64,000 nt of DNA from Pezicula radicicola (Eukaryota > Ascomycota > Leotiomycetes > Helotiales > Dermateaceae), in the NCBI GenBank assembly GCA_003008705.1, contig PDUO01000001.1:2039694-2103693 (forward strand), written 5' to 3'. The notes below the pieces were generated by a model, which saw nothing but the letters and a program-made list of their open reading frames with translations, was not told the origin of the DNA and did no database searches. Below, piece after piece: positions 41,772-43,297 of this stretch (position 1 is the stretch's first letter; each line of letters starts with the position of its first letter). The position numbers were made by a program, and so were the translations under genes.

Positions 41772-43151
41772 TGTGAATATATAATAAATAATGTAAAGAG
41801 TATATTCGTAAAGGAGATATAAATGTGGATGAGTTTGAAAGATTTGTTGTTCATATACCCTATATTAGCCGACAGTGGGCATAAGTAGAGTGTGGGGATT
41901 TTCTGCAGAGGATTGATGATACATAAGAGTAGTAGCACCTCTTATTCTTCACGAAAGCCGCCCAAATATGCATGCGACTTGCTTCACTCTCGTGTTATTC
42001 CCCAACTGCGGGGTAATGTGAACCTGTCTATTCAACTCTATTATTCGACCTCTACTACTACTAAATATGACTCTTCCATTCAATCGCATTTTAGTTATAT
42101 CCAACTCATATTTTGGCTCCACTATCCAAGAACCAGGATCCTACAACTTCGCCAGAAATGCCTCCGGGTGTCTGGCAATCGATATCGATCGTTGTAAATA
42201 AGCTTACAAAACCCACTAAATGCATGAGATATACCACGGATAACACTGCACCCTCTAGCAGTCCTGGCATGTGAGCTTGATACAGGGCTTCGGAAGCGGG
42301 AAATTTATGCTGTGCTACATACAGCGATATCATGTGTACAATCCTATAGCCTCAATTTTAGAAATTGACAGCCTTAGCTCTCTTCCTTTGAGATATTGAC
42401 ATTTATTCATATAACTATATCCTCTCAAAAAGGCATTGAAAAGTCACGATCAGACTTGGGGCGTGAGAAGTAGATTTAAGCTTCCCTGCTGAAAAAGCTT
42501 CCGATTATGAACTTGTAAAGGATCAACTGCTATCAGTCGAGTATAGCGTTGTGGAAGGGAGAGCATCCTCATCATTTTGCGGTAAATTCTACAGTAAATA
42601 ACAACTGCTGGGGCCTTGGAATTTGAGTATCTGGCCCATGGTATTGTTTCTGCTGGAGGCAAAATTTGAAATTTGGTTGAAGATGAAGTGCATAGGTACG
42701 GAAAGGAAGACTGTTAAAATGGGAAATTCCATAGTTGATTTTTGTGTCTGGAATGCCACCAGATACTAATCATACCAAACCAGAGAAGTAGTACCGACAT
42801 AGGTCGGTAGCTAGCGGAAAGAAAATGATCACATATACGTACGAAGAGCCATTTGAAAGATCGAACTATAGCTCTCACTAGCAGCTTCAACATATGGACG
42901 ACACTTCACTTATCAAGACTATATATAACATTTAGACCTTATATTTCGTCCCTCTCTATCATTATTTTATTGACTTTTAGTGAATTAGTAGACGATCATT
43001 ATTATATTTTGTAACAAAACAAGGGCTAGTCTGAAGGAGGCTAGTGCGAAGGTGAAACCCCGTTGTCCGTGAATATGCGAATATCCGGACATTAAACTTT
43101 GCGTAATATAGTTGAGTATAAGCGAAATTTCGACAACAAAATTCATTATCG
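41772..43151. other. Intergenic region holding a copied 3' end of the ligase gene
   Basis: Contains the MFS promoter and a 34-bp segment at 42120-42153 that matches the 3' end of the 4-coumarate-CoA-ligase-like gene at 45218-45251. Otherwise AT-rich with no recognised gene. The end of the region leads directly into the tRNA. Confidence 0.45.
42120..42153. repeat. Copy of the end of the CoA-ligase-like gene
   Basis: These 34 bases match 45218-45251 at 31 positions, in the same orientation. In the intact gene the matching stretch covers the last two codons, the stop and the 3' flank. Here it stands alone, with no ligase coding sequence beside it. It looks like a small duplicated fragment or the last trace of a second ligase copy. 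Confidence 0.6.
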
Positions 43152-43281
43152 GCCCGGCTGGTAAGTAAATATTGCATTCATTTCTTCAGTTGTATCGTAA
43201 CTAACAATACTTTCAGGCACAATTGGTTAGCGCGTGGGCCTTTTAAGCCCAAGGTTGAGAGTTCGAGCCTCTCGTCGGGCG
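43152..43281 (+). tRNA. tRNA-Lys(UUU) split by a spliceosomal-type intron after base 9
   Basis: Two segments, 43152-43160 and 43217-43281, together give a 74-nt cloverleaf. The acceptor 5' strand GCCCGGC pairs with GTCGGGC at the 3' end (one G-U). Positions 8-9 are TG. The D-stem is GCAC/GCGC with one A-C mismatch and loop AATTGGTTA. The anticodon stem TGGGC/GCCCA has loop CTTTTAA, so the anticodon is UUU. The variable loop is AGGTT, the T-stem GAGAG/CTCTC has loop TTCGAGC, and the discriminator is G, as expected for Lys. A T7 run follows at 43291-43297. There is no intron at the usual 37/38 site. Instead a 56-nt insert separates bases 9 and 10. Without splicing the acceptor stem cannot form normally. 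Confidence 0.85.
43161..43216 (+). other. Spliceosomal-type intron inside the tRNA-Lys gene
   Basis: The 56-nt insert begins GTAAGT, carries ACTAAC 15 bases before its end and finishes TTTCAG. These are the donor, branch and acceptor signals of the protein-gene introns in this window. It falls exactly between tRNA positions 9 and 10. It leaves the A box (GGCACAATTGG) almost whole next to its 3' edge. It is AT-rich like other introns here and shows no obvious bulge-helix-bulge at the boundaries. Confidence 0.75.
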
Positions 43282-43290
43282 ATGCATATC

Positions 43291-43297
43291 TTTTTTT
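43291..43297 (+). terminator. RNA polymerase III T-run after the tRNA
   Basis: Seven T residues begin nine bases after the tRNA discriminator base. This is the standard Pol III stop and supports transcription by Pol III rather than as part of a Pol II message. Confidence 0.8.

Follow-up and report, generated by a model that had tools for sequence, protein, structure and literature searches.

In this helotialean fungus at least 23 nuclear tRNA genes, belonging to 11 isoacceptors, are interrupted by short insertions that look just like introns of messenger RNA. Our explanation, to which we give a probability of about 0.83, is that these genes have gained U2-type spliceosomal introns, that they are transcribed by RNA polymerase III (Pol III) and that the spliceosome removes the introns from the transcripts. 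What we observe is the anatomy of the insertions, the exact restoration of the tRNAs when they are deleted, the conservation of the exons and the pattern of promoters and terminators. From the sequence of these genes we infer the rest, namely that Pol III transcribes them, that the spliceosome removes the insertions and that the product functions: the spliceosomal reading of the introns is very likely, and Pol III transcription of the interrupted genes is likely. Nuclear tRNA introns are otherwise regarded as the province of the SEN endonuclease and of RNA ligase.

The tRNA-Lys(UUU) locus of the window

The window, by which we mean the whole 64-kb stretch of DNA that was analysed, holds a tRNA-Lys(UUU) gene split between positions 9 and 10 (Table 1). 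A preliminary description of this DNA had recognized a tRNA body extending from the D-arm to the discriminator and followed by a T-run, and both are indeed there. It had also judged the contiguous upstream flank unfit to serve as an acceptor strand: read in this way the gene forms only three of the seven acceptor pairs, while the strand that it placed upstream of the insert, within GCCCGGCTG, forms seven of seven. The splice-site and branch-point motifs that it read in the insert are those of the sequence.

Table 1. Features of the tRNA-Lys(UUU) locus (positions within the window)
Feature	Position	Strand	Remark
CAACAAA start-site-like motif	43134..43140	+	18 nt before exon 1; found upstream of this genome's tRNA genes
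tRNA-Lys(UUU) exon 1, GCCCGGCTG	43152..43160	+	5′ acceptor strand and positions 8–9; identical in the C63 copy
GT..AG intron, 56 nt	43161..43216	+	between tRNA positions 9 and 10
5′ splice site GTAAGT	43161..43166	+	
Branch-point motif ACTAAC	43200..43205	+	ends 11 nt before intron end
3′ splice site TTTCAG	43211..43216	+	
tRNA-Lys(UUU) exon 2, D-arm to discriminator	43217..43281	+	Rfam match; ARAGORN on spliced sequence
Anticodon TTT	43242..43244	+	Rfam, ARAGORN
T7 run, Pol III terminator	43291..43297	+	

With the insert in place, ARAGORN sees no tRNA at this locus, even when allowed to look for introns, and the Rfam family RF00005 matches it at 43216–43273, over model positions 9–63 only, with 39 bits. 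Once the insert is deleted, ARAGORN returns a 74-nt tRNA-Lys(ttt) with ends exactly as predicted. The 9/10 junction of the mature molecule is predicted to be GCCCGGCTG joined to GCACAATTGG. As anticipated in the preliminary description the cloverleaf is complete and has a single D-stem mismatch, A12 against C23 in our numbering, which is common to a second copy of the gene. We tried 21 GT..AG deletions of 40–80 nt at the locus, and only the proposed one produced a tRNA with both ends. The sequence GCCCGGCTGGTAAG has one exact match in the 64 kb of the window; with up to two mismatches there are two matches for 0.26 expected, a number also found in three of 100 shuffles. At the gathering score, Rfam detected nothing but the tRNA in the window. 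The DNA glycosylase of the window has its best named relatives in Phlyctema, Rutstroemia, Lachnellula and Oculimacula (69–73% identity), of which Phlyctema, Lachnellula and Oculimacula belong to the Helotiales.

Interrupted genes, their introns and their paralogs

Similar genes were sought in the genome assembly (G000, 61 Mb in 152 contigs). Scoring 63 of 2516 first-look candidates gave at least 57 matches to RF00005, five of which are interrupted: the Lys gene of the window, Arg(UCU) on C62, Thr(UGU) on C98 and Val(UAC) on both C3 and C113. Searches with a T-arm pattern, with a splice-site pattern and with BLAST enlarged the set to 23. Fifteen of its members came from searches for tRNA sequence that need no splice site (Rfam, BLAST, T-arm pattern), and eight from searches for a GTAAG..AG pattern. 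As the T-arm list comprised the first 100 of 275 matches, many of them overlapping, 23 is a lower bound. Eight insertion positions, numbered by hand from the cloverleaf, are represented: 4/5 in Thr(UGU) (one gene), 6/7 in Leu(CAG) (one), 9/10 in Lys(UUU) (two) and Leu(AAG) (five), 10/11 in Arg(UCU) (one), 47/48 in Val(UAC) (two), 51/52 in Asp(GUC) (six) and Glu(CUC) (one), 52/53 in Arg(ACG) and Arg(UCG) (one each) and 59/60 in Pro(UGG) (two). None of the eight is position 37/38, that of the canonical SEN intron. Ten of 20 candidate stretches turned out not to be interrupted tRNA genes: L112–L116, L121, L122, L125 and L126 contain no tRNA, and L124 is a Ser(UGA) gene with an ordinary 37/38 intron. 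Seven further sites of the T-arm list held five uninterrupted tRNA genes (Glu, Ala, Trp, Gly, Asn), one decayed Trp-like copy and, in one case, no tRNA. As for other organisms, a contig from a viral collection (L141) holds an intronless tRNA-Asp, and the corresponding search in a collection of genome contigs gave 0 matches.

The 23 introns are strikingly uniform. All run from GT to AG over 50–60 nt, and their 5′ site, always of the GTRNG type found in U2-type introns, is GTAAG in 20, GTACG in two and GTATG in one; among the 15 genes found without a splice-site pattern the corresponding numbers are 12, two and one. A branch-point motif, [CT]TRA[CT], ends 9–15 nt before the end of every intron and takes the form CTAAY in 20. 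This common architecture supports the spliceosomal reading that the preliminary description had given of the Lys locus. For comparison, constellations resembling mRNA introns were collected in the genome by motif only (29 found against 11–15 in controls); they have a mean length of 57 nt, about half of the set being chance. Extraction of mRNA introns from the window by coding potential yielded one candidate in each of two tries. Two other origins were considered and rejected. A recent mobile introner family does not fit, as the introns, compared across isoacceptors, score little better than after shuffling (mean local score 8.24 against 7.66, with a maximum of 15 in both), and 50–60 nt is too short for a group I or group II intron.

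Deletion of the introns restores seven of seven acceptor pairs and five of five T-stem pairs in all 23 genes, a structure which was partly how they had been recognized. ARAGORN calls a tRNA in each spliced form; its ends coincide with ours in 16 and lie within 2 nt of them in seven. The isoacceptor that it names is the assigned one in 20 cases; it differs for LeuAAG-2, LeuCAG and GluCUC, probably because the program places their 37/38 intron elsewhere. It also finds an anticodon-loop intron in 19 of the 23 spliced genes, so that those precursors would need two splicing machines. The unspliced genes, submitted with the intron option, gave no correct call and three wrong ones, which tells us that tRNA finders overlook genes of this kind. 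ARAGORN is permissive, however: 45 of 289 alternative GT..AG deletions (40–80 nt) were also called as tRNAs with approximately correct ends, and 28 of these 45 concern the Val pair. The program alone does not, therefore, fix the junction. The paralogs do, and for the Val genes the precise boundary depends on the motifs and on the fact that both copies agree.

Among these paralogs, those of the Lys gene come first. The preliminary description had proposed to look for other tRNA-Lys(UUU) genes, and the search uncovered both an interrupted copy and an uninterrupted one. The interrupted copy, found by BLAST on C63 (L057), has the same nine-base exon 1, followed at the same site by a GTAAG..CTAAT..CACAG insert, and carries in addition an 11-nt intron at 37/38. 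The exons of the two interrupted genes are identical at 74 of 74 positions, whereas their introns are separated by 19 substitutions and seven gap columns in 58 columns, an identity of 0.58 against 0.50 for shuffled sequences. The uninterrupted Lys(UUU) copy (L001, C64:47467) differs from them in sequence. It follows that lysine decoding need not depend on the window locus. A loss of the 5′ half in relatives, which the preliminary description had named as refuting, is not what the one other well-preserved copy shows: that on C63 keeps GCCCGGCTG exactly. L056 and L058 are without the 5′ half, but these two are decayed elsewhere too, L056 in the 3′ strand of the acceptor and L058 in the D-arm.

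Uninterrupted copies were met for eight of the 11 isoacceptors, namely Lys(UUU), Leu(AAG), Leu(CAG), Asp, Arg(UCU), Arg(ACG), Thr(UGU) and Glu(CUC), and for seven isoacceptors such a paralog equals the mature sequence of the spliced copy, save for one compensated pair. Spliced Leu(AAG)-1 is the uninterrupted L135 at 100 of 100 positions. Spliced Asp-6 is L132 at 95 of 95, private 37/38 intron included, which implies that one of the two recently gained or lost the other intron. Arg(ACG) is L046 apart from a 37/38 intron, and Arg(UCU) and Leu(CAG) differ from their uninterrupted paralogs only inside that intron, as does Glu(CUC), compared by eye, from L142, which ARAGORN calls Glu(ctc). In Thr, positions 6 and 67 change together with respect to the paralog, keeping pair 6:67. 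Leu(AAG)-4 shows the same behaviour against L135 at 7 and 66, pair again kept, its remaining differences being located in the 37/38 intron. These paired changes connect exon 1 with exon 2 across the intron, which is what selection on the joined RNA would lead one to expect. The Asp introns, by contrast, are 0.67–0.92 alike, several pairs being about as alike as the exons, and little independent evidence can therefore be drawn from Asp.

It might be argued that we are looking at dead copies: intron-like DNA would have settled in redundant tRNA genes that are now unexpressed, or that yield no mature tRNA. The uninterrupted copies just listed mean that the interrupted ones could be dispensable, the Lys copy being nevertheless of different sequence. 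True pseudogenes exist in this genome (L056, L058, L133, L134), and short insertions in the D- or T-arm of eukaryotic tRNA genes are, according to a review, mostly found in pseudogenes (PMC4090602). We nevertheless consider this explanation unlikely. The introns have drifted, while the exons are either unchanged or altered in compensated pairs; the pseudogenes that we see have decayed exons, whereas the 23 genes keep all their acceptor and T-stem pairs. The depletion of T-runs in the introns, the kept start motif and the terminators, discussed in the next section, point to expression. Finally, the structurally sound copies that are interrupted amount to five of six for Leu(AAG) and six of seven for Asp, two more Asp matches being decayed. 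Decayed copies seen in the genome, Lys-, Asp- or Trp-like, are L056 (C2:1589633), L058 (C82:142433), L133, L134 and L145. Of these, L056 retains much of the intron of the window gene, without its 5′ exon.

If the introns are spliceosomal, as we favour, a bolder proposal can be made, which we hold tentatively and at somewhat less than an even chance: the spliceosome might be an essential tRNA-processing enzyme in this fungus. Some isoacceptors would then depend entirely on the spliceosome for their excision from Pol III transcripts, the majority of such precursors would require SEN as well, and the tRNA pool would be coupled to splicing capacity. Candidates for such isoacceptors are Val(UAC), Pro(UGG) and Arg(UCG), for which no uninterrupted copy was met among the genes examined. 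Glu(CUC) was withdrawn from this list because of the uninterrupted L142.

Promoters, terminators and the choice of polymerase

Of 30 intact tRNA genes, 27 have a CAACAAA or CAAACA motif at −60 to −1; for random stretches the count is 99 of 4000. Counted from exon 1, it precedes 19 of the 23 interrupted genes and is missing from four; with a looser list of start motifs the number becomes 21. None of the ten genes of the 5′ class, those with an intron at 4/5 to 10/11, has this motif in the 60 nt preceding exon 2. Transcription thus seems to start before exon 1. Within the Asp(GUC) family, L118, L119 and L129–L133, as well as L117 in part, have a conserved leader of about 50 nt between start motif and tRNA, which holds a small hairpin (AAGTG..CACTT or alike).

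At the other end, a run of at least four T starts within 22 nt behind every one of the 23 genes. Such runs are depleted in the introns: we count one, for 10.07 expected by shuffling, and none of 2000 shuffles was as low. Runs of at least five T are absent, for 3.27 expected. In the set of mRNA-intron-like constellations, about half of which is chance, runs of at least four T occur in eight of 26 (Fisher p 0.026 against the tRNA introns).

The internal promoter elements have been spared in most cases. On the DNA of the ten 5′-class genes, box A matches at seven or eight of the eight scored positions, and where needed it is still readable because the AG of the intron replaces positions 8–9 or 9–10. 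Box B is intact in the Asp, Glu, Arg and Val genes. Both boxes are readable on the DNA in 21 of 23 genes; the exceptions are the Pro(UGG) pair, the only genes in which the intron splits box B. The sequence features expected of a functional nuclear tRNA gene, a full cloverleaf after splicing, the boxes and a terminator, are there, the divided box B of the Pro pair excepted. Downstream of each of the latter, on C55 (L128/L103) and C67 (L127/L138), there is an intronless 3′ fragment of a tRNA with a full box B, located beyond the terminator, 223 nt (C55) and 146 nt (C67) behind the gene. The U6 gene of yeast has a downstream box B, and by analogy these fragments may act as rescue promoters.

One could accept that the spliceosome removes the introns and yet suppose that the precursors come from Pol II, or from read-through started outside the gene. 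After all, the spliceosome normally works on Pol II transcripts, and box A is displaced in the ten 5′-class genes, where it stands 50–60 nt farther than usual from the start site, a distance unfavourable for Pol III. Yet the start motif precedes exon 1 as it does in intact genes, a T-run closes every gene while T-runs are depleted in the introns, and boxes A and B are readable in 21 genes, an intact downstream box-B fragment accompanying the other two. This makes an origin outside Pol III very unlikely.

With Pol III as the polymerase, the pathway that we propose would be the following. Pol III would transcribe the whole gene, starting upstream of exon 1 and stopping at the T-run behind the gene. 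The spliceosome would recognize GTAAG, the CTAAC-type branch point and AG, the 50–60 nt leaving as a lariat and the tRNA halves being joined. Where there is a separate 37/38 intron, the SEN endonuclease and a ligase would take care of it, and RNase P, RNase Z and CCA addition would complete the tRNA. The insertion sites are such that box A or box B remains readable on the DNA, in several cases via an AG that replaces displaced bases.

Known introns of related kind and other unusual RNA genes

Canonical eukaryotic tRNA introns have a fixed site, 37/38, are processed by SEN and show no splice-site or branch-point consensus. They coexist, as identified by ARAGORN, with the introns described here in 19 of the 23 genes, and SEN presumably acts on these. 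One might then think of ectopic SEN introns, recognized through a bulge–helix–bulge (BHB) and ending in GT and AG by accident; D- and T-arm positions are known for that class (PMC4090602). Moreover, introns in the acceptor, D- or T-arm, sometimes together with a canonical one, occur in archaea, in nucleomorphs and in Cyanidioschyzon, and BHB-type motifs serve those found in archaea and in red algae (PMC4090602). Where their signal is known, such introns rely on a BHB-type motif and a SEN-type endonuclease, whereas here a complete BHB is seen at the junctions in one gene of 23 (Thr) and U2-type signals in all 23. Since a SEN origin leaves the uniform 5′ site, the near branch-point motif and the 50–60 nt length of the 23 introns unexplained, we find it hardly credible. 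As for a chance match or an assembly artefact, which the short exon 1 of ten genes (4–10 nt) and the permissiveness of ARAGORN might evoke, its probability is negligible in front of 23 loci spread over 19 contigs, ten of which exceed 1 Mb, of boundaries confirmed by paralogs, of a start motif and a terminator in place, and of a second Lys copy combining identical exons with an unrelated insert.

The spliceosomal reading has a parallel in U6, the known precedent for introns of mRNA type in an RNA made by Pol III; such introns have reportedly been described in the U6 snRNA genes of fungi, and a U6 gene of the present genome, described below, carries two, which speaks for our reading. Like the introns of our tRNA genes, those of fungal U6 are GT..AG introns of ordinary size in a short structured Pol III RNA. 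Unlike in U6, the hosts are here tRNAs of many isoacceptors, most with a 37/38 intron, and with promoters inside the gene. The rDNA of ascomycetes and lichens is also said to contain spliceosomal introns. They too interrupt an RNA that is not made by Pol II, but this is a Pol I rRNA and not a tRNA. The spliceosomal introns known from lichen rDNA were excised by yeast from Pol I transcripts (PMC8527467). Spliceosomal introns are further found in fungal U3 snoRNA genes, and according to a 2017 paper U3 and U6 are the sole small structured RNAs in which introns are known to be frequent (PMC5832005). The U3 introns are of the same mRNA type and sit in a small structured RNA, which differs in not being a tRNA and in having no internal tRNA promoter. 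A literature search that covered few subscription papers yielded no paper describing nuclear tRNA genes with spliceosomal introns, in line with the statement of the preliminary description that no nuclear tRNA was known to need the spliceosome.

If our reading is true, spliceosomal introns in many tRNA genes make up a second nuclear route of tRNA splicing, the spliceosome works on very short Pol III transcripts, with a first exon of as little as 4–10 nt, and the supply of tRNA depends on splicing. With its near-identical paralogs that have or lack the intron, the set amounts to a natural experiment on intron gain. It also offers a way to ask how such transcripts get around capping and exon definition, and what displacement of box A is tolerated.

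Other RNA genes of this genome have unusual features. The exact pattern of an 18S-end primer site has 0 matches in G000, so that the rDNA seems to be missing from the assembly, unless the site is changed or interrupted. A U6 gene (L090, C3:394290–394610, minus strand) is interrupted by two GT..AG introns, one of 63 nt and one of 53 nt, and scores 49.2 bits in Rfam with the insert; deprived of both introns it reads like what we take to be an ordinary ascomycete U6. Its first intron holds a box-A-like TGGTCTAGTGG. There is also a second, diverged, intronless U6-like gene (L089, C146:17702). On the minus strand, L100 (C36:436500), L102 (C47:841445) and L108 (C67:331575) are tRNA genes with an anticodon-loop insert of about 80 nt which itself looks tRNA-like, with a D-arm-like part, a box B and a 3′ acceptor strand; ARAGORN made no call on this inner part. 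Finally, the tRNA genes L091 (C77:252750) and L094 (C109:672890) have anticodon-loop introns of unusual length, about 80 nt, that are apparently base-paired.
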